Shown: positions 11,115 to 61,435 of the stretch, piece by piece
Layout: each line of letters starts with the position of its first letter
Position numbering within the stretch: the stretch's first letter is position 1
Source: Geminisphaera colitermitum TAV2
Lineage (GTDB): Bacteria; Verrucomicrobiota; Verrucomicrobiia; Opitutales; Opitutaceae
DNA length: 64,000 nt
Direction of reading: 5' to 3'
Assembly: GCF_000171235.2 (NCBI RefSeq)
Contig: NZ_ABEA03000195.1
Coordinates: 1-64,000 of the forward strand
The notes under the pieces: generated by a model
Told to the model about the DNA's origin: nothing
Database searches by the model: none
The model's input: only the letters and a program-made list of their open reading frames with translations
Made by a program: the position numbers and the translations under genes

Positions 11115-11129
11115 CCCCCCCCCCCCCCC
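11115..11129. repeat. C15 homopolymer in operon gap
   Basis: Fifteen C between the esterase/beta-helix stop (11133) and the FAD oxidoreductase start. The coding strand carries G here, the opposite of most other intergenic runs. Confidence 0.9.
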
Positions 11130-44890: not shown

Positions 44891-46049
44891 CGGCACCCGT
44901 CTCAACCACTCCCAACGTCTGACCCGGTATCAGATTAGGAATGACAAAGGTCGATTCCAACGTGGACTGTCCCGCCGCCACCTTTTGCACAAGGCGGGCA
45001 ATGGACTTCGCCAGCGAGCGAATATCGAACACATAGCGCGCCGGTTCCGGCGTGCAATTTGCCAGATACGGATCGGCGTCGCGGCACACCAGCGACACCT
45101 CGCCCGGCACATCAATGCCCTGGCGGAGCAAGTGCGTTTGCACCGTGAGAAAACACGCGGGATCGGCGATCAACCACGCCGTCGGACGCGGGCTCCTCGC
45201 CAGCAACCGGTCCGCCAGCCGGCACAAATCCGCCACCGTGCCATCATGGTGCGCCACACTTGCGACCGCGTCCTGCCCCCCTGCGGTTCCCGCGCCCTCC
45301 AGAAAACCAACGCGACTCTCGATATCCCCGCCCCGTTCCTGCCGGTTGAGCACAAACACCAGTTGCCGGTGCCCCAGCCGAAGCATTTGCGTTGCCGCGT
45401 GGTGACACGACGCGCGGTAGTTGAAATCCACATGCGGCAGGCTCCCCGCCTCATGCAACGTGCCCACGATCACCGCCCGCAACCGCTGACCCACGCACCA
45501 CCGCTGCATGGCCGGGCTTGAGTAGGGCAACACCCAGCAATCATGCCGGACCGACGCTGCGAGTTTCCGAAAATACGCCAGAGCCGTTGCGTTGCCCGCG
45601 AATTGTTTGTGATAAACCTGCATCGAGATTCCCCGTTCGTAGAGAATCCGGCGCAGATCATCGATCCATAGAATCGTGCGATGCCGCAGATGCTCCATTT
45701 CAAGCGGCAGCAGCAAGCCCACCGAAGCTGCGCGCCCGCCGCTGCTCCCTCCCCCCCCCCCCCCGATTGCATTTGCCCGCGCCCCCACCCTTGCATCGCT
45801 GCTGCCCCGCCGCCGCCGCTTCCGTGCCACCTGCGTTCCCTGCCGACTGCGCTCCGCAACCCAACCCTCCTGCTGCAACGTTTCCAACGCCGCCCGCACC
45901 GTCCGCCTGCTAACCCCAGCCTGTTCAGCCAGCACGCGCTCTCCCGGCAGTTGCCCCGCCCACTCCCCCGCCTGTAAACGCTCCCGCAAGTATTCCGCGA
46001 TTTGGGTGGATCGAAGTTGATAGGGGCGGCGGGAAACAGTGTTCGGCAT
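44865..46049 (-). CDS. GntR-type regulator with periplasmic-binding-like sensor (regulator 1)
   Basis: Protein of 394 residues. Winged HTH of GntR type at residues about 12-76 (STQIAEYLRERLQAGEWAGQ, LPGERVLAEQAGVSRRTVRA, LETLQQEGWVAERSRQGTQV), a basic Gly-rich linker coded by a C14/G14 run, and a LacI-like ligand domain (SVGLLLPLEMEHLRHRTILW, MLRLGHRQLVFVLNRQ, VSLVCRDADPYLANCTPEPA). Paralogue of the regulator at 46690. A 19-bp near-palindrome begins on its start codon, so autoregulation is likely; the same element marks the genes downstream. Ligand unknown. Confidence 0.88.
   Translation of the reverse strand: MPNTVSRRPYQLRSTQIAEYLRERLQAGEWAGQLPGERVLAEQAGVSRRTVRAALETLQQEGWVAERSRQGTQVARKRRRRGSSDARVGARANAIGGGGGGSSGGRAASVGLLLPLEMEHLRHRTILWIDDLRRILYERGISMQVYHKQFAGNATALAYFRKLAASVRHDCWVLPYSSPAMQRWCVGQRLRAVIVGTLHEAGSLPHVDFNYRASCHHAATQMLRLGHRQLVFVLNRQERGGDIESRVGFLEGAGTAGGQDAVASVAHHDGTVADLCRLADRLLARSPRPTAWLIADPACFLTVQTHLLRQGIDVPGEVSLVCRDADPYLANCTPEPARYVFDIRSLAKSIARLVQKVAAGQSTLESTFVIPNLIPGQTLGVVETGAAISPPPRP
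45751..45764. repeat. C14 homopolymer in GntR linker
   Basis: G14 on the coding strand, between the DNA-binding and sensor domains. A slip would leave a DNA-binding domain without a sensor. Confidence 0.9.
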
Positions 46050-46085
46050 GGTCTCTTTATGAAACCATTCATGCCGCTTGTGAAT
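46049..46085 (+). promoter_or_regulatory. Shared operator-like element, site A
   Basis: TGGTCTCTTTATGAAACCA (46049-46067), 9 bp, then CTTGTGAAT (46077-46085). The first base is part of the start codon of regulator 1 (minus strand). One of five related copies. Confidence 0.7.
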
Positions 46086-46233
46086 CCTCCTTTTCAGAAA
46101 AGTATCTATTCTAAAATCAATTCCATTTCAGAACACGATTCCCCACATTTCACTTACATCCAAAGAATAACATTATTCTAAACGGTTCTTCGACGTTTTC
46201 AGTGGAAACTCGATAAGTTGATATAGCGGGAGT

Positions 46234-46474
46234 TGGCGCGGTAGCGCCCGTAGCGCAGGCATCTTGCCTGCCATCTAAATTGATTGCGCGAAGCGCGGTG
46301 ACATCGGTTTGTCACGTAGTTCGGTGCATTATTGCCAATCCGAACCGTGTGACTCACGAATACGCAGAGGTAACGGTTCGGGCTAAAGCTCCGAACTACG
46401 TCAAGGCAAGCGGCGCTTCGCGCAGTAGATTGGATGGCAGGCAAGATGCCTGCGCTACGGGCGCTGCCGCGCCA
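46234..46474. repeat. Concentric 241-bp inverted repeat
   Basis: Arms of 42 bp (46234-46275 and 46433-46474) with one mismatch, enclosing gcgcgaagcgc/gcgcttcgcgc and a cacgtagttcgg/ccgaactacgt pair. The gap 46086-46689 holds no gene that I can support apart from this element. Confidence 0.88.
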
Positions 46475-46689
46475 CCTCTCGTCTATCCACCGAAAATGTC
46501 GAAGAACCTTCTAAACCAAAAAGAATCTATTCGCCCTCGTCTGAGCTCCTCCCTGTCTGGACCGAAGCTTAAACCCTCGCTACTCGATTCCGTTCCCGCC
46601 TTCTCGCCACGCCCAACATAACGCCGGAATTCCGTGTCATGTGGAAATGAATACAAAGGAACTTTGAGAAATTTCCAGGAAATGGAGAG

Positions 46690-47799
46690 TCACCCTTTGC
46701 GGCGATCTCGCAAGGTTGCTCCTGCTACGAACTCCGGCAAGATGTGCGACTCCATGCCGGCTAACGAAGCTCCCGAAGCAATCCGTTCGGCCATACGCGC
46801 AACCTGCTTCGCCAGTTGCCGACTATCAAAAACATAGCGGCTCGGTTCCGGCATGCAGCTTGCCAGCCACGCATCCTCATCCCGGCAAACCAACGAAATA
46901 TCATCGGGGATTCTCACCCCACGCTGCATCAAACGCGTATGCACCGTAAGGTAACAAAGCGGATCGGCAATCAACCACGCACTCGGCTTCTCCGCTCGCT
47001 CCACCAAACGATCCACGAGATGACACACGCCGTCCGTCGTTCCATTATGATGTATTATTTCTGCCACTACACCGTCATGCGCGCGGGCCGTTTCCAGAAA
47101 GGCCGCGCTGCATTCCATATCACCCAGTTTCCCCTCGCGATCCATAAGCATTGCCAGATGCCGGTGTCCCATTCGGATCATCTGCGCCGCCGCATGATGC
47201 CCCGATGCCTGATGATCCACCATCACATGAGGCAAACCACAACCGGCATGACGCGCCCCAATCACCAGCGCAGGCACATTCGATTCCTCGCACCACTGCT
47301 TCATCGACGCGTTCGAATTCGACCAGGAAATCAGCCAGCAATCATGTCGCGACTCCCGCACCAGTTTCCGAAATGCCCGGTTTTTGGCTCCATCCGAACG
47401 AAATTTCTTCTGGTAAACCTGCAGTCCAATCTGACGCGAATACAGGATGCGCCTGCATTCATCGATCCACAGGATGGTGCGCTGAAAAAGATGATCCATT
47501 TCCACGGGAAGGAAGAGTCCTACCGAACGTGAACGAAGCGCCATGCGACGGCCCCGCCCTCCTCGTGCGTCCGCCTCCTTCACCGTGGTTCCCTGCCGAC
47601 TGCGCACCAAGACAACACCCTCCTGCTGCAACAAGTCTAAGGCCAAGCGCAGAGTCGTCCGGCTCGTCCCGATCTGTGTCGCCAGCACACGCTCAGCGGG
47701 AATGGCATCCCCCCATTCCCCCGACTTGATCCGTGCGCGCAAAAACGCTGCCACCTGCGTGGCTCTCGTCTGGAAGGGCATGTCACGGGAAGAGTTCAT
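46690..47799 (-). CDS. GntR-type regulator with periplasmic-binding-like sensor (regulator 2)
   Basis: Protein of 369 residues (or from the internal ATG 47781, MPFQTRATQ). GntR winged HTH at about 8-75 (ATQVAAFLRARIKSGEWGDA, IPAERVLATQIGTSRTTLRL), short basic linker (GGRGRRMALRSR), then a LacI-like sensor (SVGLFLPVEMDHLFQRTILW, MIRMGHRHLAMLMDRE, ISLVCRDEDAWLASCMPEPS). Clear paralogue of regulator 1 but without the Gly homopolymer. Divergent from the symporter gene; the shared operator element starts on its own initiation codon and faces the symporter, so it probably controls both. Confidence 0.88.
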   Translation of the reverse strand: MNSSRDMPFQTRATQVAAFLRARIKSGEWGDAIPAERVLATQIGTSRTTLRLALDLLQQEGVVLVRSRQGTTVKEADARGGRGRRMALRSRSVGLFLPVEMDHLFQRTILWIDECRRILYSRQIGLQVYQKKFRSDGAKNRAFRKLVRESRHDCWLISWSNSNASMKQWCEESNVPALVIGARHAGCGLPHVMVDHQASGHHAAAQMIRMGHRHLAMLMDREGKLGDMECSAAFLETARAHDGVVAEIIHHNGTTDGVCHLVDRLVERAEKPSAWLIADPLCYLTVHTRLMQRGVRIPDDISLVCRDEDAWLASCMPEPSRYVFDSRQLAKQVARMAERIASGASLAGMESHILPEFVAGATLRDRRKG

Positions 47800-47836
47800 G
47801 GTTTATTCATTGGACCACGAGATTCCCCTTTTGAAA
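47799..47836 (+). promoter_or_regulatory. Shared operator-like element, site B
   Basis: TGGTTTATTCATTGGACCA (47799-47817), 10 bp, then CTTTTGAAA (47828-47836). It sits between divergent regulator 2 and the symporter; the TTGAAA could also be a -35 hexamer for the symporter. Confidence 0.75.
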
Positions 47837-47864
47837 ACCCATATCGCATTTTCTTCTTCGGCTT

Positions 47865-49568
47865 ATGTTCGGACTTCAATGGCAAGACTTTCTGGTCATC
47901 GTGGCTTACCTCGTTATCGTAACCATCATCGGCGTGTGGATGGGAAAACGGGTGCACAACATGGGGGATTTCGCGATGCCGCGCACCTTCGGGAAAATCC
48001 TGATGATTTTCTTTTCGTTCGGCACGGGCACCAATTCCGACCAAGCCGTGGCCGTCGCCGCCAAGAGTTACACCAATGGCATATCGGGCATCTGGTATTC
48101 TTGGTTGGGAATCTTCACGACGCCGTTTTTCTGGATCATCGCGCCGATCTTCCGGCGGCTCCGCGCCGTGACCACGGCGGATGTTTTTGAGGCGCGCTTT
48201 GGCCGGAGCATGGCCTGCCTCTATGCGTTTCTGGGCTTCACAAAGCTGATGTTCAGCATCGGTTTGAGCCTGAAGGGAGGCGCGATCATGCTCACGGCGG
48301 TTTCGGGCGGGGCGATCTCCGGTGATGTCTCCATTTTTGTCCTCACGGTCCTCTTCGTTCTCTACGGCACGGTGGGAGGACTCTCCGCGGCAGTCATGAC
48401 CGACCTGATTCAGGGGCTTATGACGATCGCGTTTTCCTTCATGCTGCTGCCATTGATTCTGAATTCAATCGGCGGGCTGGAAGGGATCCGAAGCTCCATC
48501 GACAATCCGGAATTTTTCAACCTCTTGTCCAATGAACAAATCGGTCTGTTCTTCGTGACGATGCTGGGAATCTTGGGACTGCTGATGGTGATCGGCGCCC
48601 CGCATACGATGGGAAATTGTGCGGCGGGACGGAATGAAATGGACGGTGCCGTAGGCTTCATGGTGGGAAGTTTCGTCAAGCGCATCTGCACGGTGGCATG
48701 GGCCTTTGTTGGTCTGGCGGGAGTGGTCTATTTCGCCGGGCGGGAGATCAATCCGGAGGAGGTTTACGGGCAGGTGGCACGGGAATTCCTGCCGCGGATC
48801 GGGTGGGGATTGCTGGGCTTTTTCCTCGCCTCGATGATGGCGGCGATGATGAGCACCTGCGACGCCCTCATGGTCGCGGCGTCCGCACTTTTTACCCAAA
48901 ACCTCTACAAACCGCTGCGCCCGCACCGCTCGGCCAAGCACTACCTTGCCGTGGTGCGTATCTCCGGTGTCGTGATCGTGACCGGCGCGGTGTCCATCGC
49001 GTATCTGCTGCCGGGATTCATTGCTGGCGTGGAGATTTATTGGAAACTCAGTTCGATCATCGGCCTTGCCCTGCTCATGGGCTTGATGTGGCGCGGATTG
49101 ACGCCGGCGGGTGCGTGGGCGACCACGCTGGGCGCATACGGGACATGGCTGCTTCTCTATTATTCTCCCGCCGTCGCATTGATCGCCCGATGCCCGATGG
49201 TCACAGAATGGGGCATCATTAGGCAAAATGCCTCCGGCGTCGCATCGGTATATATGCCCTGGCAGATTCTGTTTTTCCTGATCGCGGGCATTACGTCGGG
49301 AATCGTAGTGAGCCGTTTCACGCGGCAAATTCCACGCGAAAAACTCGATCGTTTCTATGCCCTGATACGGACTCCCATTCAGCCCGGCGAAGTGGTGGAA
49401 GAATCCTGCGTCCTCCCGCGAGGCGTCAATCCGCCAACGCCGCGTCATATTTTCCCCGGAACGTCCATCGAACTGCTCATCCCATCGTCCCGGACGGTGG
49501 CGGGTTTCGCCGCTGGCTGCGCGGGGGTCGTCGCATTGATCGGTGCGGTGGTCTGGATTCTCTCATAA
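47865..49568 (+). CDS. Sodium:solute symporter family transporter
   Basis: Protein of 567 residues with about 13-14 hydrophobic helices. SSS features: WQDFLVIVAYLVIVTIIGVW at the start, the unwound helix area FSFGTGTNSDQAVAVAAKSY, VLTVLFVLYGTVGGLSAAVM-TDLIQG (the typical T-D-x-x-Q-G sequence), and FFLASMMAAMMSTCDALMVA near the second sodium site. The last 90 residues are a cytoplasmic tail plus a final helix. It imports an organic solute with Na+; its position at the head of a sialidase/glycosidase locus suggests a sugar, sialic acid or uronate. Substrate not determinable. Confidence 0.9.
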   Translation: MFGLQWQDFLVIVAYLVIVTIIGVWMGKRVHNMGDFAMPRTFGKILMIFFSFGTGTNSDQAVAVAAKSYTNGISGIWYSWLGIFTTPFFWIIAPIFRRLRAVTTADVFEARFGRSMACLYAFLGFTKLMFSIGLSLKGGAIMLTAVSGGAISGDVSIFVLTVLFVLYGTVGGLSAAVMTDLIQGLMTIAFSFMLLPLILNSIGGLEGIRSSIDNPEFFNLLSNEQIGLFFVTMLGILGLLMVIGAPHTMGNCAAGRNEMDGAVGFMVGSFVKRICTVAWAFVGLAGVVYFAGREINPEEVYGQVAREFLPRIGWGLLGFFLASMMAAMMSTCDALMVAASALFTQNLYKPLRPHRSAKHYLAVVRISGVVIVTGAVSIAYLLPGFIAGVEIYWKLSSIIGLALLMGLMWRGLTPAGAWATTLGAYGTWLLLYYSPAVALIARCPMVTEWGIIRQNASGVASVYMPWQILFFLIAGITSGIVVSRFTRQIPREKLDRFYALIRTPIQPGEVVEESCVLPRGVNPPTPRHIFPGTSIELLIPSSRTVAGFAAGCAGVVALIGAVVWILS

Positions 49569-49584
49569 CCTGATTGCGTTGCCC

Positions 49585-49607
49585 TCCCCCCCCCCCCCCC
49601 CCCCCCC
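49585..49607 (+). repeat. C23 homopolymer directly upstream of BNR-repeat gene 1
   Basis: Twenty-three C, ending 10 bp before the ATG 49618 and leaving no Shine-Dalgarno sequence. The longest run in the window. The paralogous gene at 54513 lacks it. Confidence 0.92.
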
Positions 49608-49617
49608 GCACACACAC

Positions 49618-50775
49618 ATGATGAAATACACAACCTACATCCTCACGCTCGGCGTCCTGATTTCCTGTGCTGCTTTGCAGGCTGAAACCTTGCAGGCAGA
49701 AGCGCCGCTGCCGATTTGGGCGGCGAAAAATCTCGATGGGCAACCGGTGCGCATTGCGGTTCCCGCGCCGAAAGACCTCCGCTTCGCTCATCTGTCTTGG
49801 AACAAGGTGCAGCGCACTCCCAAGGGAACGGTGATTCTGGCTTACACTGCGGGCACCTTTCACGGCAACGATGGCGGGGGAAGTCCCGCCGTCTCACGTT
49901 CCACCGACGGCGGTCGAACCTTCTCGGAGCCTCAAATCATTCGCGAGTTCGGCCCCGGCCGCGATTACACCCAGAGCGGCAACCTGGCGCTCGGCATTGA
50001 CGAGAACGGGAACCTCGTGCTGCTCGCAATGGCTTTCACCGCCGACACCACCAGTCACATCTTCGGCTGGCGCTCGGAGGATGATGGCGTGACTTGGAAG
50101 CCGGTGGATACCAGCGCTCTGGGGCCCAACAAAACAGGATCTGTATTCGGTGATATCGTGTCGGTCGAAGGGCAAGGGCTCATGGTGCTCGGGCATTACC
50201 GGCAAGGCTCGAAGCCATATAACCGAGGCATCTGGCTGTCCACTTCTCAGGATCAGGGACGCACTTGGAGTCCGGCCCGCCGTATCTCGGATGTTCACGC
50301 AGCGGAACCTGTCCTTGTGCAGACTACTTCCGGTCGGTTGCTCGGCTTTTTCCGCAGTCGAGGTGATAAAACTCTGGGCGGCCGGCAATATGTAGGCGTT
50401 TCCGACGACCAAGGTGCCACTTGGAAAACCGAACTTTCCGTTCTGGATTCTGAAGACAACACCCGGTCCAGACTGGCGGCCCCATTCGCGGTTGAGAATC
50501 CCAACAACAAGGGGGAAATCCTCGTGCTCACCACCGAGCGCGGCAAAGTCGGAGAAACGCGGGGACGCATCTGGCTCTGGCGGGGGGACGCGCAGAAACT
50601 GGACTGGAAGCGCGAGCGCGTGTTGCTTGAATTTCCCCACATCCGGGGAGATGCCAACGACGACTTCGGTTATCCATGGCTGCTGCATCTCGAAGGAAAC
50701 CGCTGGCTGATGTACTATTATCATGGCCAAAAAAAGGGTGCCAATCCGCTCTGGGTGACCGAGGTGAAGTTGTAA
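49618..50775 (+). CDS. Secreted BNR-repeat (sialidase-fold) protein, copy 1
   Basis: Protein of 385 residues with signal peptide (YILTLGVLISCAALQA). Six-bladed propeller with Asp-boxes: SRSTDGGRTF, RSEDDGVTW, STSQDQGRTW, VSDDQGATW. The FRIP motif and arginine triad of true GH33 sialidases are not visible, so it may hydrolyse or bind another sugar. Almost identical to the gene at 54513, from which it differs by scattered substitutions and a two-residue insertion (FFRSRGDK versus FFRGDK). It is 49 bp after the symporter. Confidence 0.85.
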   Translation: MMKYTTYILTLGVLISCAALQAETLQAEAPLPIWAAKNLDGQPVRIAVPAPKDLRFAHLSWNKVQRTPKGTVILAYTAGTFHGNDGGGSPAVSRSTDGGRTFSEPQIIREFGPGRDYTQSGNLALGIDENGNLVLLAMAFTADTTSHIFGWRSEDDGVTWKPVDTSALGPNKTGSVFGDIVSVEGQGLMVLGHYRQGSKPYNRGIWLSTSQDQGRTWSPARRISDVHAAEPVLVQTTSGRLLGFFRSRGDKTLGGRQYVGVSDDQGATWKTELSVLDSEDNTRSRLAAPFAVENPNNKGEILVLTTERGKVGETRGRIWLWRGDAQKLDWKRERVLLEFPHIRGDANDDFGYPWLLHLEGNRWLMYYYHGQKKGANPLWVTEVKL

Positions 50776-50790
50776 TGCGGATACACTTAT

Positions 50791-51012
50791 GGGAGGTCCT
50801 AAAAATTGAAAAATTACACAGAGGACACAGAGCAGGCACAGAGATTGGGGAGGAAAAAACGACTCCGCACCTTTTCCCGCTAACAAAGATTTTTATTTAA
50901 AATAAATGACTTACAGAAACATCCCCTTGCAGAAAAAACATCCGACAATCGGACAGTCCTCCCCAAGCTCTGTGCCCTCTCTGTGTCCTCTGTGTAATTC
51001 TTAGGAGCTCCC
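50791..51012. repeat. Long imperfect inverted repeat that includes the next gene's Shine-Dalgarno
   Basis: Arms around 50812-50854 (aattacacagaggacacaga...) and 50957-50999 (...tctgtgtcctctgtgtaatt), extended by gggaggtcct (50791) and aggagctccc (51003-51012). The AGGAG 8 bp before the ATG at 51015 lies in the right arm, so a folded mRNA would hide it. Confidence 0.75.
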
Positions 51013-51014
51013 TT

Positions 51015-52448
51015 ATGACAAAGAACGTATCCAAAAATAAGCGTACACTCGTGATGGATCCGGAACTCGTGAAGTCATCCACCGGCACCACGCTCACGGT
51101 CAACCCGCCTCTGGCTGTGCAGCCGGTGATCGTGCCGGACAAACCTTGGGAAGGGTTTATGATCAACTTCTACACCTCGGTCATCGACGAGGGAGGCAAA
51201 CTGCGGCTCTGGTACAACTGTCGGGACAAGGACCGCAAATTCCATGTCGGCTACGCGGAATCGGAGGACGGTATCCATTGGACCAAGCCCGCCCTTGGTT
51301 TGACCGAGTTCGAGGGCAACACGGCAAACAACATAGTGAGCGGAACCAATTTTTTCGCCGGCAACGTGTTTCGCGATCCCCATGCGGCCTCTCCCGACGC
51401 CGCCTATGTCTGCATAAGCAGCGTGTTCAAGGGGTTTGCGCCGCCGGCCGAATGCGCCATCTACCGCTACACGTCGCCGGACGGCCTGCGCTGGAAGCGG
51501 GATGCGGAGCCGATGCTGGCATTCGAGGCCGATTCCCAGAATGTCACGCTGTGGGACGAAAAGTTGGGAAGCTATGTGCTTTTCCTGCGCGGCTGGGACC
51601 TGCACGACCCGGCGGGGCGCGCGCGCAGGGTCGTCAGGCTTGAGCTGGATGCATTGGACCGGCCAACCGGGATCAAACCGACGGGGCGCGGGCAGACGAA
51701 AGAACCGGAGCGAACGCCCTTCATCGCCGACGAGATACCCACGGTCTTCGCCTGTGATGCGCTCGATCCTATGCACACGGATGTTTATACCAGCGCCGTC
51801 CATCCCTACGGGACGCAGGGCGAATGGCTGGTGGGTTTTCCGTCAATGTATCGCCACGATACCGAGTCGCCCCATCGCAACGACGGGCGCACGGAGATCC
51901 AATTTATCGCCAGCCGCGACGGGAAAAAATGGCTTCGCTTCGACCGGGCTCCGTATGTGGCGCCAGGATTGGACGGCAGCGCGAGCGCGAACATGATCTA
52001 CATCGGAGCAGGCTTGGTTGAACGCGGCGACGAAGTCTGGCATTACGGGACGATTTATCGCACCACGCATGGCGATGAGCCCGCGCGCCAGAAGCAGCAG
52101 GATGGCACCATCTGTCGTTTCACCCAGCGCATCGACGGATTCGTTTCCCTCAATTTCGCACCCGCTGGAGGTCGCTGCCTGACCAAGCCGGTGCCCGTCA
52201 CCGGCGGGAAACTGAAGCTCAATGTTGACACTGGTGCCTTGGGAGAAGCCCGCGTCGGATTGTTGGATGAAAACGGACACGAAATCCTAGGCTTTGGAGT
52301 GGACGAATGCGAACCGCTGCGACTGAACGCAACTGGCGCCGATATTCGCTGGAAGGAACAGGCTGACCTTGCGTCCCTGCTGGGGCGGCAGGTGAGTCTC
52401 TTGATCGTGGCGACACGCACGAAGTTGTTCTCATTTCGTTTTGAATAA
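51015..52448 (+). CDS. Five-bladed propeller glycosidase-like protein
   Basis: Protein of 477 residues, no signal peptide. Repeats typical of GH32/GH43/GH130-like propellers: KLRLWYNCRDKDRKFHVGYA, ESEDGIHWTKPALGL, NVFRDPHAASPDAAYVCISS, RYTSPDGLRWKRDAEPML, FIASRDGKKWLRFDRAPYV. Residues about 365-477 form a beta-sandwich tail (VPVTGGKLKLNVDTGALGEA). Proteins like this are frequent in Planctomycetes and Verrucomicrobia next to BNR and FAD genes. Clean assignment to a glycosidase family is not possible by eye. It starts with AGGAG 8 bp upstream. Confidence 0.7.
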   Translation: MTKNVSKNKRTLVMDPELVKSSTGTTLTVNPPLAVQPVIVPDKPWEGFMINFYTSVIDEGGKLRLWYNCRDKDRKFHVGYAESEDGIHWTKPALGLTEFEGNTANNIVSGTNFFAGNVFRDPHAASPDAAYVCISSVFKGFAPPAECAIYRYTSPDGLRWKRDAEPMLAFEADSQNVTLWDEKLGSYVLFLRGWDLHDPAGRARRVVRLELDALDRPTGIKPTGRGQTKEPERTPFIADEIPTVFACDALDPMHTDVYTSAVHPYGTQGEWLVGFPSMYRHDTESPHRNDGRTEIQFIASRDGKKWLRFDRAPYVAPGLDGSASANMIYIGAGLVERGDEVWHYGTIYRTTHGDEPARQKQQDGTICRFTQRIDGFVSLNFAPAGGRCLTKPVPVTGGKLKLNVDTGALGEARVGLLDENGHEILGFGVDECEPLRLNATGADIRWKEQADLASLLGRQVSLLIVATRTKLFSFRFE

Positions 52449-52457
52449 ATGCCCCCT

Positions 52458-52468
52458 CCCCCCCCCCC
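52458..52468 (+). repeat. C11 homopolymer upstream of FAD oxidoreductase 1
   Basis: Ends 30 bp before ATG 52499, in a pyrimidine-rich leader (cctccacctccgcctccac) without a Shine-Dalgarno sequence. Confidence 0.88.
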
Positions 52469-52498
52469 GCCTCCACCTCCGCCTCCACAACTTTTATT

Positions 52499-54490
52499 AT
52501 GAGCTCTCTTTCCCACTTTGATCTGGTCGTTTATGGCGCAACTCCCGGTGGCATTGCCTGCGCAGTGCGAGCCGCTCGCGAAGGACTGACGGTTTCGCTC
52601 GTCAGCGTCTTTCCTCATTTGGGGGGAATGCTTACTTCAGGTCTCGGACTTTATGATGCCAATTACACCGGCGAACGCGCGCCGCTCGTGACCGAAGTGT
52701 TCCAGCGAATACTCGCGCACTACGAGGCGGTTGACGGCCGTGAATCGGAGAATTACCGGCTCTGCCAAACCAACCAGACCTTCGAGCCACACGTTGCCGA
52801 AAAGGTGCTCACGGAAATGGTCGCGGGTGAACCGCGCATCAGCGTTTTCAAAGGCTGGCAGGTTACGGGCGTCGAGACATCGGGGAGGACGATCATTGGC
52901 ATTCTGATCGAAGAAATGCACGGAAAGGAACGCCTCCGGCTGCAAGCACGCGCCTTTGTCGATACTTCCTACGAAGGCGACCTGCTGGCGGCGGCGGGTG
53001 CGCCTTACCGCGTTGGTCGCGAGTCGCGGACGGAATACGGCGAACCTCACGCCGGACGGATTTTTACTCGTTACGATGAAAGCCCCGACGGACCGCGCTA
53101 CCCCTACGAAGCCTTGCACGGCTTCATCAAACTAAAGCCCTTCGACCTTTGCACGGGGAGGATTTTCCCCGGCAGCACGGGCGAAGGCGACAATGCAATC
53201 CAAGCCTACAACTTCCGCATCTTCCTCACGCGAGATCCCGCCAACCGCGCACCCATTCCGAAACCCGAAGCTTACTCGCGGGAAAATTACCTCGGCCTGT
53301 TGCAGTCGGAAAACGAGTCGTTGAACATTCCCTATCCGGTCAAAAGCAAATGGCTGGTGGATGACATCCGAAGCTTCAAGTTTCGCAACCACCGGACCAT
53401 GCCGAACCGGAAAATCTCATGGAATCACGGCAGCTTTACCGGCCAGAATCACGAGTATCCCGAGGCGGACTGGTCGAAGCGTCGTGAGATTCTCGAACGC
53501 CACAAACGCCACGAACTGGGCCTGCTTTGGTTTTTGCAAAATGATCCCGATGTACCCGAAGAGGTGCGCGCTCGCGCTTGTGAACTAGGACTCGCCCGGG
53601 ACGAGTTCACCGACAATGGCAACTTTCCTTGGGAGATCTACGTGCGTGAAGCCCGCCGGCTCTGTGGGCGAGCGGTTTTCACCGAGTTGGATGCCAGTCT
53701 CGCTGCGGGTATCCAGCGAACCCCGCCGCATTCCGACAGCATTGGCATCACCGATTGGATGATGGACTCACACGAATGCAGGACTGAGCGGCAACCCGGC
53801 AGTGCCTATGACGGAGCCATCCTCCTGAGTGAACTATCCAGACCTGCCCACATCCCGTTTCGCTGCCTGCTGCCGCCCGATCTGGACAACTTGCTTGTCC
53901 CGGTGTGCCTCTCGGCGACGCATGTGGGCTGGGGCTGCATCCGCTTGGAACCCACTTGGATTCATGTGTCTGAATCGGCGGCTTGGGCCTGCGTGCTCGC
54001 CCAGCGGCGTCAGGAAATGCCGGCGCAGATTCCGGTCGAGGAATTGCAACGGCTGCTTCTCTCGCGAGGCGTGATGATCTCGTTTTTCAACGATTTCGAC
54101 ATGCGCCATGATGCGCCTTGGGTGGAGGCGGTGCAATTCTTCGCCGTGCGGGGATTTTTTCCGACCTACAATGCCGATGCTGATCAGCCGCTGGATGAAG
54201 CAAGCGCCGTTTTGTGGATTCAGGAATTGGCCGGTCTGTTGGCAGGCAAATCCCAAGCATTGACGCTCGCCCGGCAGTTGGCAGCGGTGAGAACGACCGC
54301 GTCAAAAATTGATCCCCTTAGTTTTGCCACGCAGCTTTGTGAGGCGCTTGGTGCAAGTGCATCCGCCGATTGGATACCGGCTGAATTGGCTTCAAGTCCA
54401 AAGCCACTGACCCGAGGTGACGCATGCCGTATCATGTATCGCGCGATGAACGCCCAGCGATCAGAATGCCGCGCCGTTCCTGCAAGTTAA
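52499..54490 (+). CDS. FAD-dependent oxidoreductase 1 (FAD_oxidored family)
   Basis: Protein of 663 residues, no signal peptide. Rossmann start FDLVVYGATPGGIACAVRAA at residues 7-26 with Gly-x-x-Gly-Gly; FVDTSYEGDLLAAAGAPYRV (motif D-x-S-Y-E-G-D of the family), NAIQAYNFRIFLTRDPANR, LPPDLDNLLVPVCLSATHVG near the FAD end. It is full-length and homologous to FAD oxidoreductase 2 at 57601. Members often sit in polysaccharide loci and are thought to oxidise sugars or sugar acids; the substrate here is unknown. Confidence 0.88.
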   Translation: MSSLSHFDLVVYGATPGGIACAVRAAREGLTVSLVSVFPHLGGMLTSGLGLYDANYTGERAPLVTEVFQRILAHYEAVDGRESENYRLCQTNQTFEPHVAEKVLTEMVAGEPRISVFKGWQVTGVETSGRTIIGILIEEMHGKERLRLQARAFVDTSYEGDLLAAAGAPYRVGRESRTEYGEPHAGRIFTRYDESPDGPRYPYEALHGFIKLKPFDLCTGRIFPGSTGEGDNAIQAYNFRIFLTRDPANRAPIPKPEAYSRENYLGLLQSENESLNIPYPVKSKWLVDDIRSFKFRNHRTMPNRKISWNHGSFTGQNHEYPEADWSKRREILERHKRHELGLLWFLQNDPDVPEEVRARACELGLARDEFTDNGNFPWEIYVREARRLCGRAVFTELDASLAAGIQRTPPHSDSIGITDWMMDSHECRTERQPGSAYDGAILLSELSRPAHIPFRCLLPPDLDNLLVPVCLSATHVGWGCIRLEPTWIHVSESAAWACVLAQRRQEMPAQIPVEELQRLLLSRGVMISFFNDFDMRHDAPWVEAVQFFAVRGFFPTYNADADQPLDEASAVLWIQELAGLLAGKSQALTLARQLAAVRTTASKIDPLSFATQLCEALGASASADWIPAELASSPKPLTRGDACRIMYRAMNAQRSECRAVPAS

Positions 54491-54512
54491 CGTGAGGCAT
54501 TAACACATACTC

Positions 54513-55664
54513 ATGATGAAAGGCACAACCTACATTCTCGCACTCGGCTCCCTGATTTTCTGTCCTGCTTTGCAGGCTGAAACGTTGCAGGCAGAAGCAC
54601 CGCTGCCGATTTGGGCGGCGAAAAACCTCGATGGCCAACCGGTAAGCATTGCGGTTCCCGCGCCGAAAGACCTCCGCTTCGCTCATCTGTCCTGGAACAA
54701 GGTGCAGCGCACCCCCAAGGGAACGGTGATTCTGGCTTACACTGCCGGCACCTTTCACGGCAACCGTGGCGGGGGAAGTCCTGTCGTCTCACGTTCCACC
54801 GACGGCGGCCGGACCTTCTCGGAGCCTCAAATCATTCGCGAGTTCGGCCCCGGCCGCGATTACACCCAGAGCGGCAACCTGGCGCTCGGACTTGACGGGA
54901 ACGGTGACCTCGTGCTGCTCGCCATGGCTTTCACCGCCGATACCGCCAATCACATCTTCGGCTGGCGCTCGGAGGATGATGGTCTGACTTGGAAGCCGGT
55001 GGATACCAGTGCTCTGGGGCCCAACAAAACAGGACCCGTATTCGGCAATATCGTGCCGGTGGATGGGCAGGGGCTCATGGTGCTCGGGCAATACCGGCAA
55101 GGCTCGAAGCCATATACCCAAGGCATCTGGCTGTCCACCTCCCGGGATCAGGGACGCACCTGGAGCCCGGCCCGCCGTATCGCAGACGTTGATGCAGCGG
55201 AGCCCGTCCTTGTGCAGACTACTTCCGGCCGACTGCTCGGCTTTTTTCGAGGTGATAAAACTCTGGGCGGTCGGCAATATGTAGGCGTATCCGACGACCA
55301 AGGTGCCACCTGGAAAACCGAACTTTCCGTCCTGGATTCCGAAGACAACACCCGATCCAGACTGGCGGCCCCATTCGCGGTTAAAAATCCCAATCGCAAG
55401 GGGGAAATCCTCGTGCTCACCACCGAACGCGGCGAAGTCGGAGAAACGCGGGGACGCATCTGGCTTTGGCGAGGGGACGCGCAGAAACTGGACTGGAAGC
55501 GCGACCGCCTGTTGCTTGAGTTTCCCCACATCAAAGGAGATGCCAACAACGACTTTGGTTACCCATGGCTGCTGCATCTCGAAGGAAACCGCTGGCTGAT
55601 ATACTATTATCATGGCCTGAAAGATGGTGCCAGTCCGCTATGGGTGACCGAGGTGAGGCTGTAG
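54513..55664 (+). CDS. Secreted BNR-repeat (sialidase-fold) protein, copy 2
   Basis: Protein of 383 residues, near-identical to the gene at 49618: same signal peptide plan (YILALGSLIFCPALQA) and Asp-boxes (STDGGRTF, SEDDGLTW, STSRDQGRTW, SDDQGATW). The similarity runs from the ATGATGAAA-like start to the stop. It is 22 bp after FAD oxidoreductase 1. Substitutions are spread evenly, mostly silent or conservative, implying a fairly recent duplication with selection. No C-run precedes it. Function as for copy 1. Confidence 0.85.
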   Translation: MMKGTTYILALGSLIFCPALQAETLQAEAPLPIWAAKNLDGQPVSIAVPAPKDLRFAHLSWNKVQRTPKGTVILAYTAGTFHGNRGGGSPVVSRSTDGGRTFSEPQIIREFGPGRDYTQSGNLALGLDGNGDLVLLAMAFTADTANHIFGWRSEDDGLTWKPVDTSALGPNKTGPVFGNIVPVDGQGLMVLGQYRQGSKPYTQGIWLSTSRDQGRTWSPARRIADVDAAEPVLVQTTSGRLLGFFRGDKTLGGRQYVGVSDDQGATWKTELSVLDSEDNTRSRLAAPFAVKNPNRKGEILVLTTERGEVGETRGRIWLWRGDAQKLDWKRDRLLLEFPHIKGDANNDFGYPWLLHLEGNRWLIYYYHGLKDGASPLWVTEVRL

Positions 55665-55710
55665 TGCGGACTACGAAAAAAATAACCGCGAACATCCAGA
55701 CAACTCCTTT

Positions 55711-57309
55711 ATGCCCAAACGATCCATCCTCGCCGTCATGCTTTTCCCGCTGTGTTGCTTTCCTGCCCTGCTGCACGGCAGCGAACCCTTTTTCGCCAAG
55801 CAAACCGTCCTGACCCGACAGACGGAAGGTTATCATACCTTCCGCGTGCCCGGCCTTGCGGCGACCCCGTCGGGCTCGCTTCTCATCTTTTGCGATGGCC
55901 GCGTGGATGGCGGCGGCGACGTCGGCAAGATGGATCTCGTTGTCAAACGCAGCCCGGATGGCGGCAAAACTTGGGAGCCGGTGCGCACGCTCTTCACCGA
56001 CAAGGGCAGCAAGACAAAGATCGGTAATGTCTCGGCGGTCGTTGATGAAAAAACCGGCAACCTACATGCCATATTTTGCAAAAACCTTGAGCAGGCCTAC
56101 AGCATTAGCTCCACGGATGGCGGAGCGACTTTCGAGAACCCGGTGGAAATTACCGAGGTTTTTAAAAAATTCGCGAATCCCTGGGTCTTCTTCGCCACCG
56201 GCCACGCCCACGGCATCCAGCTCCGCACCGACCGGCTCGTCGTCCCCATTTTCCTCAGCGAAGTGCCTCGTTCCGGCGGCAAAAAGCGCGATAGCTTCCA
56301 TGTCGGGGTGATCTACAGCGACGACCACGGCAAGACATGGCAGGCAGGCGGCACCGTGCCCGAAAGCAGCCATCTAAACGAGAGCACGATCTACGAGGCC
56401 TCCGACGGCTCGATCGTGATCAATGCGCGAGCCACGAATTCCAACCGCTACGTTGCGCACAGCGCGGACGGCGGCCAGACTTGGTCAAAACCCGTATCCG
56501 ACAACAATCTCTGGGGCGCCCGCTGTCAGGCCAGCTCGCTGGTCACGCAAGATAGCGACGGCAAACGCGTCACCCTTTTCACCAATCCTGCTGGGCCCGG
56601 TCGCACGAATCTCACCGTCCGCCTAAGCTATGACGACGGCAGGACGTGGCCCTACGCGAAGCTCATCGACGCCGAAGCCTCCGCCTACAGCGACCTCGCG
56701 CTCGGTCACGACGGCAGGATTCATATCGCTTACGAATCCGGAAAAAAATCCGCCTACGAGGGCATTGCTGTCGCCAGCTTCAACGTCGATTGGATCCTCA
56801 GTGCTCCGCAAGCCGCCACCGTCTCGCCAGCGACGCAGGCAGCTTCGCCACCGGCCAAATCCCAAAGTCTGTCGGGCGTGGTCGTTGACGACGAGGATGC
56901 CGAACGATCCGGCAAGTGGGAGCCGGGGCAAAAAGCCGGGTATGTTGGAAAAGGATACCGGCGCGCGACGTCTGGCGATTCCACCGCGCGATTCCTTCCC
57001 GACCTGCCGCAGGCCGGCGAATACGAGGTGCGCCTTCTCTATCCTGTAACGGGCAAGAACACCTCGAAGGCCAAGGTCACCATCCTGAGTGTGGACGGCG
57101 AAAAAACGCTCATCATCGACCAGCGCAAAAGCGCGTTTGACGGCACGGTGGCCCGCTCGCTCGGCACCTTCCAATTCAACGAAGGCAAGGAAGGCGCGGT
57201 GACAATTTCCGCCGAGGGAGCGGATGGCTTCGTTCTCATCGACGGCGTGCAATTCGTCCCCGTTGAGATTGCGAAAGAGGAACGCAGGAAAGTGAATGCG
57301 GCGCAATAG
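55711..57309 (+). CDS. Exo-alpha-sialidase (GH33) with C-terminal golvesin-like domain
   Basis: Protein of 532 residues with signal peptide (LAVMLFPLCCFPALLHGSEP). The sialidase active site is complete by motif: FRVPGL with Arg45, Arg240 (INARATNSNR), Arg298 (GPGRTN), Asp70 (VDGGGDVGKMD), Glu229 in NESTIYEAS and Tyr326 (SAYSDLAL). Asp-boxes SPDGGKTW, STDGGATF, SDDHGKTW, SADGGQTW, SYDDGRTW. Residues about 370-525 form a beta-sandwich resembling golvesin/CBM modules (VVVDDEDAERSGKWEPG, YEVRLLYPVTGKNTSKAKVT). It releases terminal sialic acids from glycans outside the cytoplasm, the best-supported enzyme activity in this locus. Confidence 0.9.
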   Translation: MPKRSILAVMLFPLCCFPALLHGSEPFFAKQTVLTRQTEGYHTFRVPGLAATPSGSLLIFCDGRVDGGGDVGKMDLVVKRSPDGGKTWEPVRTLFTDKGSKTKIGNVSAVVDEKTGNLHAIFCKNLEQAYSISSTDGGATFENPVEITEVFKKFANPWVFFATGHAHGIQLRTDRLVVPIFLSEVPRSGGKKRDSFHVGVIYSDDHGKTWQAGGTVPESSHLNESTIYEASDGSIVINARATNSNRYVAHSADGGQTWSKPVSDNNLWGARCQASSLVTQDSDGKRVTLFTNPAGPGRTNLTVRLSYDDGRTWPYAKLIDAEASAYSDLALGHDGRIHIAYESGKKSAYEGIAVASFNVDWILSAPQAATVSPATQAASPPAKSQSLSGVVVDDEDAERSGKWEPGQKAGYVGKGYRRATSGDSTARFLPDLPQAGEYEVRLLYPVTGKNTSKAKVTILSVDGEKTLIIDQRKSAFDGTVARSLGTFQFNEGKEGAVTISAEGADGFVLIDGVQFVPVEIAKEERRKVNAAQ

Positions 57310-57310
57310 C

Positions 57311-57365
57311 GCCCGTAGCGCAGGCATCTTGCCTGCCGTCTGGTCTATAGCGCGAAGCGCAGTGA
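57311..57365. repeat. Partial GC-rich palindromic repeat after the sialidase
   Basis: gcccgtagcgcaggcatctt and the gcgcgaagcgcag motif of the repeat family, without the second half. It runs directly into the cruciform at 57371. Confidence 0.7.
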
Positions 57366-57370
57366 CCTTC

Positions 57371-57484
57371 ATGGAGTGCGGCGATTCATCGCCGCTTTTG
57401 ACGAACCGTTTCAACGGTTCGCCAGTAAGCGTGAAGCGTGCTAAAGCACGCGAAACAAAGCGGCGATGAATCGCCGCACTCCAT
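57371..57484. repeat. 27-bp perfect inverted repeat enclosing two hairpins (cruciform)
   Basis: Arms 57371-57397 and 57458-57484 are exact complements. Inside, GAACCGTT/AACGGTTC (57403-57420) and GCGTGCT/AGCACGC (57436-57451) form two smaller hairpins. The cloverleaf outline resembles a REPIN/MITE; it carries no tRNA consensus (no GG-D-loop or TTC arm). Confidence 0.9.
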
Positions 57485-57497
57485 AGGAGAACCGAGG

Positions 57498-57534
57498 AGG
57501 TCCATTTAATGGACCATACATTTGCCCTTTGAAC
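57498..57534 (+). promoter_or_regulatory. Shared operator-like element, site C
   Basis: AGGTCCATTTAATGGACCA (57498-57516), 10 bp, then CTTTGAAC (57527-57534), upstream of FAD oxidoreductase 2. GGTCCAT and ATGGACC are perfect half-sites. Confidence 0.7.
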
Positions 57535-57600
57535 ATCTCCGGTTCCGGAAATGTTCGGGCATTCCATAAACCGCCCTCACCTTCCCGCGATTCCCGAGCC

Positions 57601-59479
57601 ATGAACATCGGTGCCCATCATTATCACCGCCGCATAAAAACCAACGCAGGGGAAAAACAAGATTTACCGGACCTGGTCGTTTTTGGCGGGACGGCTCCCG
57701 GCATCGTGTGCGCCGTGCGCGCAGCGCGCGAGGGGATGCGGGTTGCACTGGTAACATCGGGCATCCACTTGGGCGGTGCGCTGCCTTCGCTCGGCGCGTT
57801 GGAGACCCACTATCGCGGTGCGCGCTCACCGCTCGTGAGCGAATTCGAAGCGCGGGTGAAGGAGCATTACCGAACGCGCCATGGCGAGGATTCCGAGCCG
57901 TTTCGCGTCTGCACGGGCGGTTCAATGCTCACGTTCGAGCCGCATGTGGCCCAGGAAATTCTCACACGCTGGATCACCGACGAACCGGGCATTCGCTGGT
58001 TGAAAGGATTCACGCCGGTCCGCGTGGAACGCGAAGGCGCGCTGATCCGCGCCGTGGTGTTCGAGGTGACGGAGGCAAAAAAACTGGCGACAGGAGGAAC
58101 ACTGAGGCTTGAGGCGGACGCCTTTGCTGACGGCAGCTACGAGGGCGACCTGATGGCGCTGGCCGGAGCCGGGTTTCGCATCGGACGCGAGGCGCGCACG
58201 GAGTTTGGCGAGCCGAGGGCGGGGCGGGTTTTCACGCGCTGGCTGAACGGCGTTCACCCGCGGGCCGCCGCCGAAGGCCGGCTCAATCTTGTCACCGCCA
58301 AAGCCACCACCTCCGAGCCACTGCCGGGCAGCACGGGCGAAAGCGACGACAACGTGCAAAGCTACAGCTACCGCCTCTGCCTCACAGACGATCCCGCGAA
58401 CCGCCTGCTGCCTGCCTCCCCCCCCCCCCGGCTATGAACGCGAACGCTTCACGCCGATCCTGCTCCCGCCCGCCGAAAAAGAGCGCATGAGACTGCCGTT
58501 TCACCACCGCTTTCTTATCCAGACCCTGCACGAGATGGTGGAGAATGACCACGTCTTCCACGGGCACGCGCTGCCCAACCGCAAACGCAGTTGGAACGCG
58601 ACGAATCTCACCGGCGCAGGCAAACGCTACGCGGCGGCCTCCCCCGCCGAACGCCGCGCCATCGAGTGCGCCCACGCCACCCACGCGCTCGGCCTCATGT
58701 GGTTTCTGCAACACGATCCAGCGGTGCCCGCCGACATCCGCTCCCGCGCCCTCGAATGGGGACTGGCCGGCGATGAATTTGCCGGGACGCAGAACCTGCC
58801 GCCCCAGCTCTATGTGCGCGAGGCGCGCCGACTTGCGGGCCGGGCCGTTTTCACCGAGCACGACGCCCTCGCCGAACCGGGAAGGGAACGCGCCCCGGTC
58901 CACGCCGATTCGATCGGCATCACCGAGTTTTCCCTCGACTCGCTGGCCTGCACCACCGAACGCCTGCCGGGAACAGGCGCATTGTGCGACGGACAACTTT
59001 TCCAGATGGAAAACTCGCGTCCCGGCCAGGTGCCGTTTGGGGTGCTTTTGCCGCGCGAGATCGACAACCTGCTCGTCGTCACCTGCGTCTCCGCGACGCA
59101 TGTCGCTTGGGGCACGATACGGCAGACGCCGACATTGATGCACCTTGCGGAGTCGGCGGCCTGGGCACTGGTGCTCGCGAGGCGTCGCGGTGTGGCTCCG
59201 GCGAACCTCGATGTATCCGAATTTCAACGACACATCGTGAGTCACGGCATCATGATTTCGTTTTTCAACGACTTCGACATGTCCTGCCCCGAGCCGTGGG
59301 TTCCCGCGATGCAACTGCTCGGCATCCGAGGCTTTTTCCCCGATTACGACGCCGCGCCGCACCGCGTGCTCAACGAGGCCGCAGCCCACGACTGGAGCCG
59401 TCGTGCGCCGCATGTCGAGGCAAGCCGGCTCCTTGGCAAAACCCATGCGGAAGCCGCGTCGATGATCGTGGATTCGTAG
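57601..59479 (+). CDS. FAD-dependent oxidoreductase 2, split by a frameshift at a C12 run
   Basis: Start ATG 57601 (MNIGAHHYHRRIKTNAGEKQ). Frame 1 reads LVVFGGTAPGIVCAVRAARE and DGSYEGDLMALAGAGFRIGR, then stops at 58435-58437 right after the C12 run at 58418-58429. The rest is open in frame 2: GYERERFTPILLPPAEKERM, HALGLMWFLQHDP, LPREIDNLLVVTCVSATHVA. Removing one C joins them into about 625 residues, matching FAD oxidoreductase 1 (663). So the gene is off at 12 C and on at 11 (or 14). Phase variation or a sequencing error are both possible. Operator site C is 66 bp upstream. Confidence 0.85.
58418..58429 (+). repeat. C12 homopolymer at the frameshift of FAD oxidoreductase 2
   Basis: The upstream frame ends in ASPPPRL-stop; the downstream frame continues PPPPGYERER. 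A one-base contraction restores the open frame. Confidence 0.92.
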
Positions 59480-59525
59480 CGCGAAGAAACGTCCGCGCAT
59501 CATACTATTTTCCAATCAGAAATAT

Positions 59526-59604
59526 CTCACGCAGAGACGCGGAGGCGCAGCGAAAACAGATGTATTCTCTCTGCGACTCTGCGACTCTGCGTGAGTTCTT
59601 TTTA
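59526..59604. repeat. Inverted repeat downstream of FAD oxidoreductase 2, possible terminator
   Basis: Perfect outer pair ctcacgcagag (59526-59536) and ctctgcgtgag (59585-59595), partly paired interior, followed by ttcttttt. Apart from this, operator site D and a C17 run, nothing else is seen in 59480-59876. Confidence 0.65.
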
Positions 59605-59682
59605 CCCTCTTATTATATCTTTGAGTGAGGGAGTGGTATCAGGCGGCGGAGGCACCATGAGCTAACTCACTGGGCAACGACA

Positions 59683-59720
59683 TGGTTCATTTATTGGACC
59701 ATGTAATCCGTCTTTTGAAA
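59683..59720 (+). promoter_or_regulatory. Shared operator-like element, site D
   Basis: TGGTTCATTTATTGGACCA (59683-59701), 10 bp, then CTTTTGAAA (59712-59720), 156 bp upstream of FAD oxidoreductase 3. Confidence 0.75.
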
Positions 59721-59831
59721 GCCCTGTTTCGCCCAAAAACTCCCCCAAGAAACCCGTATTCCAACCAGATTTTATCAACCCAACACCTCCCGCCCTCCCG
59801 CCCTCTTTCCTACTGCTCACTGTTCACTGCT

Positions 59832-59848
59832 CCCCCCCCCCCCCCCCC
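59832..59848 (+). repeat. C17 homopolymer upstream of FAD oxidoreductase 3
   Basis: Seventeen C ending 28 bp before ATG 59877; no Shine-Dalgarno sequence in between. Confidence 0.92.
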
Positions 59849-59876
59849 GTCCGACTCACAACGCCTGCCGAAATTC

Positions 59877-61379
59877 ATGCACACCATTGCCACAACCACA
59901 CTTCCCGCGCTTACCACTGACGTCCTTGTCATTGGTTCCGGAGCCGCCGGACTCACTGCCGCAATCGCCGCCGCACGCAATGGAGCCAGCACCCTACTCG
60001 TCGAGTCTGCCGGATTCCTCGGCGGACTCTCCGCCACGCTCCCCTGGCTAGGCTTTCACGACCGCGATTATCGCCAAGTCGTCAAAGGACTCCCCGCCGA
60101 ATTTGTTCACCGCCTCCAGCAAGCCCGCGCCGCCTCGCCCTACGAATACGACATCAAGTGCGCCTCCGCCGTCAGCATCGACACCCACCGATGGAAATGC
60201 CTCGCCATGCAACTCTGCGCCGAGGCTGGCGTGAAGCTCATGCTCCACACCCATTTCCTGGACACCCTCCGCGACGGCGACCGAGTCACCGGCGTGCTCG
60301 TCCACCACAAATCCGGACTCCAGCGTATCCACGCCCGCACGACAATCGACTGCACTGGCGACGGTGACGTTGCCGCCCGCGCTGGCGTTCCTTGGGAAAA
60401 AGGCCGCACCGGCGACGGACTCGTTCAGGCGCCGACTCTTGTTTTCCGTCTCGGTGGCGGCGACCGTTCCGCCTTCATCGACGGCTGCAAACGCGAGGAA
60501 CTCAACTACCGCGAATGGCTCGCGCCCTATCCTGAACTTCGGGCCAAAACGCTTGCCCGCCTCGACCGCATGCAAGTCATCATCTGCGGCGGATTCGCCC
60601 CCCTGCTCGCGCAAGCCCGCGCCGCGGGCGACCTCGACCTGCCGCAAACCCGCATCGTCGGCGTCAAGACCCACATCCCCGACGAATTCACCGTCGTCAT
60701 GACCCGAGTCCTCGGCCTCGACCCCGTTGACGTCCACAGCGTCACCGCCGCCTACGCCCGCGTTTACGAGCAGATCCCGCCGCTCGTGTCATTCTTTCAA
60801 AAATACGTCCCCGGCTTCGCCTCTGCGCGTCTTCTCGAAATCGCACCCATGCTCGGCATCCGCGAAAGCCGCCGCATTACCGGTGACTACCTCCTCACAG
60901 AAAACGACCTGCTGAACGGCTGCGTTTTTAACGACGCCATCGCCATGGGCGCTTACCACATCGACATTCACCGCCCCGCTGGCACCTGGGTTGAATCCCG
61001 AAACGTCCGCGCCTACACCATTCCGCTTCGCAGCCTCATCGCCCGCGGGGTCGATGGCCTCATGATGGCGGGCAAGTGCATCTCGGCCGCACACGAAGCC
61101 GTCGCATCCACCCGAGTCATCCCCATTTGCATGGCCCAAGGCCAGGCCGCGGGCACAGCCGCCGCCATTGCTGCCCGCCGCCGTGCCAGCATCCGCCAGA
61201 CACCACTCACCGAACTCCAAACCCTGCTCCAGCAACAAGGTGCCGAGATCGGCCGCACCCTCGAACCACCCAACCAAACTCTCATCGATGAAATCGGACA
61301 ACTTCCATTCGACGAACCTCACACCACCGGCGACCGCGATGCGGCCTCATCCGCCTCCTTGGCATGGCTCCAACGCTGA
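59877..61379 (+). CDS. FAD-dependent oxidoreductase 3 (FAD_oxidored family)
   Basis: Start ATG 59877 (MHTIATTTLPALTTDVLVIG), 500 residues; the open frame further upstream crosses the operator and the C17 run and is not coding. Rossmann motif DVLVIGSGAAGLTAAIAAAR at residues 15-34, TTIDCTGDGDVAARAGVPWE (family D-x-T-G-D-G-D), IRESRRITGDYLLTENDLLN, and a C-terminal FAD segment GVDGLMMAGKCISAAHEAVA. It belongs to the shorter branch (about 450-500 residues) and is only distantly like oxidoreductases 1 and 2. Regulated, by position, through site D. Confidence 0.9.
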   Translation: MHTIATTTLPALTTDVLVIGSGAAGLTAAIAAARNGASTLLVESAGFLGGLSATLPWLGFHDRDYRQVVKGLPAEFVHRLQQARAASPYEYDIKCASAVSIDTHRWKCLAMQLCAEAGVKLMLHTHFLDTLRDGDRVTGVLVHHKSGLQRIHARTTIDCTGDGDVAARAGVPWEKGRTGDGLVQAPTLVFRLGGGDRSAFIDGCKREELNYREWLAPYPELRAKTLARLDRMQVIICGGFAPLLAQARAAGDLDLPQTRIVGVKTHIPDEFTVVMTRVLGLDPVDVHSVTAAYARVYEQIPPLVSFFQKYVPGFASARLLEIAPMLGIRESRRITGDYLLTENDLLNGCVFNDAIAMGAYHIDIHRPAGTWVESRNVRAYTIPLRSLIARGVDGLMMAGKCISAAHEAVASTRVIPICMAQGQAAGTAAAIAARRRASIRQTPLTELQTLLQQQGAEIGRTLEPPNQTLIDEIGQLPFDEPHTTGDRDAASSASLAWLQR

Positions 61380-61397
61380 AACCAACAATCTTCTTTA

Positions 61398-61435
61398 TGG
61401 TATCTTTATGGAACCACGACATTGCGCTTTTGAAA
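61398..61435 (+). promoter_or_regulatory. Shared operator-like element, site E
   Basis: TGGTATCTTTATGGAACCA (61398-61416), 10 bp, then CTTTTGAAA (61427-61435), 143 bp upstream of the PEP-CTERM gene. Confidence 0.75.

Follow-up and report, generated by a model that had tools for sequence, protein, structure and literature searches.

Candidate TGGT-N11-ACCA operators of GntR/LacI-type chimeric regulators in Geminisphaera colitermitum TAV2 and related Verrucomicrobiota

Introduction

The TGGT half-site is classical for GntR regulators. AraR of Bacillus subtilis resembles the two regulators of the present locus, GntR1 and GntR2, in that it joins a GntR-type winged helix to a GalR/LacI-type sensor and is associated with palindromes both at the gene encoding it and at genes for transport and catabolism (PMC4494728, PMC4218819). 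The AraR operator, At(T/A)tGTaCGTAcaa(A/T)T, places GT 4 bp from AC (PMC4218819), whereas the distance is 11 bp here. FadR and HutC share with this locus the TGGT-like half-sites (TKGT/ACMA) and palindromes that often lie in divergent promoters, but their GT-AC distances are 2-3 bp and 4 bp, respectively, and their C-terminal domains are different (PMC4494728). YtrA is similar in that its palindrome is long and its GT and AC lie well away from the centre; however, it has a short two-helix C-terminus, is associated with ABC-transporter operons and rarely has divergent genes (PMC4494728). The correlated positions 12-13/29-30 of YtrA, in the numbering as interpreted here, imply a still wider spacing (PMC4494728). 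Suvorova et al. describe additional boxes that lie 7-12 nt away from the palindromes of GntR regulators (PMC4494728). Those boxes resemble the half-site, while the CTTTTGAAA box that accompanies the palindromes of this locus is unlike TGGT.

Results and Discussion

The window, which is the whole stretch of DNA analysed, comprises 64,000 nucleotides of the G. colitermitum TAV2 genome and has two regulator genes on the minus strand, gntR1 (44868..46049) and its paralogue gntR2 (46693..47799), whose products are 47% identical. Both proteins have an N-terminal GntR winged helix (PF00392, E 4e-14 and 4e-15) and a C-terminal GalR/LacI-type ligand-binding domain (PF13377) with PDB matches to LacI-family sensors. 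PF13377 is the only C-terminal domain found; the HutC, FadR and YtrA C-terminal domains are absent in both. One close relative is encoded in the congener G001, with 68% identity to GntR1, its orthologue, and 48% to GntR2. Two scans of genome contigs found no relatives closer than those used.

The first-pass annotation placed five near-palindromes of the form TGGT-N11-ACCA at 46049, 47799, 57498, 59683 and 61398, and all are found there (TGGTCTCTTTATGAAACCA, TGGTTTATTCATTGGACCA, AGGTCCATTTAATGGACCA, TGGTTCATTTATTGGACCA and TGGTATCTTTATGGAACCA, in that order), with the copy at 57498 starting with AGGT. The exact form occurs four times in the window against 0.49 +/- 0.64 expected, and none of 100 shuffles contained four or more. 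The corresponding 23-mers are operator 1 (46047..46069, CATGGTCTCTTTATGAAACCATT), which overlaps the gntR1 start codon; operator 2 (47797..47819, CATGGTTTATTCATTGGACCACG), between gntR2 and a symporter gene; operator 3 (57496..57518, GGAGGTCCATTTAATGGACCATA); operator 4 (59681..59703, CATGGTTCATTTATTGGACCATG); and operator 5 (61396..61418, TATGGTATCTTTATGGAACCACG). In the best copy the symmetry extends further, to CATGGT...ACCATG. The reported overlap with the initiation codon of both GntR genes amounts to one base common to each start codon. The same base is shared between the G001 gntR start and the palindrome CATGGTATCTTCCAGATACCACG, which is followed by CTTTTGGAAA (L057:10236). Since the G001 gene has both features, the overlap and the adjacent box are conserved in two species.

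A scan of the TAV2 genome (5.67 Mb, 225 contigs) with WGGTNNNTTNAWNNNACCA and no mismatches gave six matches. Five are the window sites and the sixth, C100:85399 (AGGTGCCTTCAAAAAACCA), is unrelated. The sites are thus confined to the cluster, and the random scatter that would have spoken against the regulon proposed in the first-pass annotation is not seen. A 23-mer matrix derived from the five sites gave them scores of 25.6-32.5, and the next window match 9.8, a gap that is circular, the sites being the training set, yet clear.

Similarity among the sites could also result from a mere recent duplication of a promoter segment. The cluster does have duplicated genes, including two regulators and several BNR and FAD paralogues. 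However, the flanks do not align beyond the palindrome and box, and the palindrome form is kept in the congener and in distant homologues, making this reading highly improbable. The preferred reading is that the five palindromes of this presumed sugar-use cluster are very probably docking sites of the two local GntR/LacI-type chimeric regulators.

Two further features were seen around the operators. A Shine-Dalgarno-like AGGAGG lies at the left arm of the operator at 57498 and is followed by a seven-codon ORF (ATG GAC CAT ACA TTT GCC CTT TGA; 57490-57533). A dispersed repeat with gcgcccgtagcgcaggcatcttgcctgcc is present at 46240-46470 and 57309-57490, adjoining two operators.

The box beside the palindromes

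The box described as following each palindrome after 9-10 bp is present at all five sites on the plus strand, as an exact copy or a variant. The exact CTTTTGAAA occurs beside operators 2 (47828..47836), 4 (59712..59720) and 5 (61427..61435), and the variant CCTTTGAAC beside operator 3 (57526..57534). Operator 1 adjoins the degenerate CTTGTGAAT (46077..46085). The box is best kept upstream of a plus-strand target gene (47799, 59683, 61398 and G001) and most degraded at 46049, where the plus-strand target is absent and minus-strand gntR1 is the only gene. Its distance to the palindrome is constant and its distance to start codons varies.

The box is genus-specific. As a family-wide element it was rejected, with a similar sequence in 1 of 39 family sites, and the composite pattern has convincing matches only in TAV2 and G001, the others being near control level. 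Across the TAV2 genome CTTTTGAAA occurs 50 times compared with 34 for reversed controls, counts that do not support a strong general role. The box may be the site of a second protein or a genus-specific promoter feature. TTGAAA had been proposed to double as a -35 hexamer, but inspection of six aligned sites showed no TATAAT-like hexamer 16-18 bp downstream and the box is missing in the rest of the family, so the proposal is not supported. Two other promoter readings were rejected. Placing the -10 region of leaderless gntR transcripts in the palindrome is inconsistent with the hexamers 7-12 bp before ATG (CATAAA, AATGAA and CTGGAA), and a sigma-54 reading has the wrong GG-GC spacing.

The composite might instead be translated, as a short leader peptide or an upstream ORF (ATG GTN ... 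CTT TTG AAA, encoding MV-x-L-x-D/N-H-x-I-x-LLK), and the frame is indeed open from the palindrome ATG in three of the five sites and in the congener site. Two copies contain stops, however, the amino acid varies freely at codons 3, 5, 8 and 10, and the conserved bases are the symmetric ones. A coding role is thus extremely improbable.

The N11 form across the regulator family

Homologues were collected from 235 relatives and the surrounding DNA of 129 was read. The flank count used 128 homologues of the same order, leaving out the G001 orthologue, with 273 kb of flanks. TGGT-N11-ACCA occurs 47 times in these flanks, whereas the 40 other spacings between 0 and 40 average 3.1 occurrences (sd 2.0, max 9; Poisson p about 1e-38 if the sites are independent). 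No such peak exists inside the regulator genes (4 vs 2.0). In an unbiased scan of all 4-mer half-sites and spacings, TGGT with N11 ranks first (41 vs 1.6). The AraR-like spacing TGGT-N4-ACCA is not enriched in the family flanks; GT-N11-AC is found in the window and family instead. For 18 homologues outside the order, other classes included, N11 again leads for TGGT (10 vs 0-5 at other spacings, or about 1.5 for comparison), and the unbiased scan is less clean, with N11 at rank 3.

Most family sites lie upstream of the regulator, 30-150 bp from its start, or downstream, 31-122 bp from its end. Only 31 of 129 homologues have an exact site no more than 300 bp away; with one mismatch allowed the number rises to 70 (background 13-29). 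The P-S-E-R homologues seldom have a site (4/45 vs 31/84; Fisher p = 7e-4, ignoring kinship), and no alternative half-site stood out among them. Since these homologues largely do without the N11 site, the operator is not universal in the family. TGGT-N11-ACCA nevertheless appears to be a shared operator form of homologous regulators across much of Verrucomicrobiota.

A second regulator of the same family, whose copies in the two species seem to correspond, has TGGT-N11-ACCA sites on either side (G000:C166:77403-77421 of L163 in TAV2; in L183 for G001). These sites are a probable second operator pair.

Recognition-helix residues and half-site bases

Within the SRxTxR motif, the identity of the residue that follows SR is correlated with the bases at half-site positions 6 and 7 (permutation p<0.001). 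Proline goes with A in 20/22 half-sites, N with C in 14/20, T with T in 8/10, and R with TC in 6/6, the last reducing to four independent half-sites because one site was entered twice (L028 and TAV). Rules derived from the exact sites were then applied to held-out N11 sites with one mismatch, where they gave the correct base at position 6 for 55 of 84 half-sites; the success rate for one-mismatch sites at other spacings was 11-36%. Therefore, the N11 sites are tied to the GntR/LacI proteins, with the caveat that related proteins share both residue and site. On a tree calculated from only the sensor domains, there are 1-3 well-supported independent changes of this residue, with P and N in the expected direction, and a sign test on so few pairs cannot reach significance. 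Across the family, position 6 shows the strongest correlation, while the sites in the window split at position 7.

These results also bear on whether the sites are read by a different regulator or a sigma factor instead of the GntR proteins. The CTTTTGAAA box could be read by another protein, but the N11 palindrome accompanies GntR/LacI chimera genes phylum-wide and the bases inside it vary with the recognition helix of these proteins. It is thus improbable that another factor reads the palindromes, and the local regulators remain the favoured readers.

Two candidate operator classes

At position 7, both arms carry C at 46049, 61398 and the G001 site (class A; operators 1 and 5), and both carry A at 47799, 57498 and 59683 (class B; operators 2, 3 and 4). 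This split was recognised post hoc, in six sites. The recognition helix reads SRRTVRAALE in GntR1 and the G001 protein and SRTTLRLALD in GntR2. Assuming that each regulator controls its own gene, class A would belong to GntR1 and class B to GntR2.

The first-pass annotation suggested one regulon. The part that stands is the confinement of the sites to one locus, at regulator genes and target promoters; against it, two classes match two paralogues. Alternatively, homo- or heterodimers of the two regulators could occupy any of the five sites, and the position-7 split would be accidental. All five sites do have the TGGT-N11-ACCA form, the box occurs in both classes and the paralogues are 47% identical. 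However, position 7 is consistent within each class in both arms, the paralogues differ at the specificity residue after SR (Arg49 in GntR1, Thr48 in GntR2), and the congener has the GntR1 type with a class-A site. A single regulon is therefore somewhat unlikely. Two overlapping adjacent regulons are probably the better description, based on the position-7 classes, the paralogue residues and the synteny of the class-A operon.

By this arrangement GntR1 would read its own promoter and that of the PEP-CTERM operon, and GntR2 would read the sites at its own promoter and at the genes for the symporter and two FAD oxidoreductases. Each regulator may bind as a dimer that places one winged helix on each TGGT half-site, with 11 bp between GT and AC. 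On the model of AraR, it would most likely repress the gene encoding it and, close by, genes for uptake and catabolism, and a sugar-like ligand on the LacI-type domain would end repression, as in AraR and LacI relatives.

Neighbouring genes and possible ligand

The presumed targets are all on the plus strand. Operator 2 precedes a sodium:solute symporter gene (47865..49568, PF00474) and operator 4 an FAD-dependent oxidoreductase gene (59877..61379, PF12831). The presumed target of operator 3 is a split FAD-dependent oxidoreductase gene (57529..59479, PF12831) with overlapping frames 57529-58437 and 58289-59479, broken at a C12 tract (58418-58429), and a likely ATG at 57601. It is possibly a phase-variable gene or an indel error.

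The first gene after operator 5 is a PEP-CTERM/autotransporter-repeat (PATR) gene (61579..62832), syntenic with the congener operon. Compared with the operon divergent from the G001 gntR, the class-A operon past 61398 has a PATR/PEP-CTERM protein at 49%, a 376-aa protein at 86% and an N-acetylneuraminate-lyase-like aldolase at 92%. The aldolase is nearest to N-acetylneuraminate lyase (NanA-like), yet under the curated cut-off. The cluster also has BNR sialidase-like proteins alongside the symporter and FAD oxidoreductases. As a guess from the BNR proteins, symporter and NanA-like aldolase, the ligand is possibly sialic-acid-like. Four tandem paralogous genes downstream of the PEP-CTERM gene (L185:1172-6399; contig C31 63171-68398) look cellulase-like by eye.

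The window also has 19 homopolymer runs of at least 9 nt, all C/G and none A/T (for example 11115-11129, 49586-49607, 58418-58429 and 59832-59848). Genome-wide there are 2426+2427 overlapping C12/G12 positions (an estimated ~1400 tracts), compared with 13 in G001, 2 in G006 and 0 in G004. Most poly-C tracts have T or CT directly before them. The excess may be either a real spread, by a mutator or phase variation, or a sequencing or assembly artefact.

Conclusions

Taken as a whole, the explanation by operators of local regulators, in two classes and of a family-wide TGGT-N11-ACCA form, is considered likely on the strength of the sequence comparisons. No description of an 11-bp spacing in a GntR/LacI chimera was found in the open-access literature searched, nor in the same literature one of a GntR operator in Verrucomicrobiota. 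If the explanation is true, sequence could reveal regulons throughout a phylum in which hardly any transcription factors have been mapped, and polysaccharide and sugar regulons would become predictable in Verrucomicrobiota. A large, apparently uncharacterised regulator group would gain a predicted operator and a specificity rule.

The chimeras have the AraR domain plan, yet their predicted operator geometry places them outside AraR. The predicted GT-N11-AC docking geometry would put the half-site centres 15 bp apart. We lean towards the view that the Verrucomicrobiota GntR/LacI chimeras form a distinct subfamily, with GT-N11-AC docking and a recognition-helix code that divides operators among cluster paralogues. 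The AraR-type domain plan would then be usable with a half-site spacing other than that of AraR.
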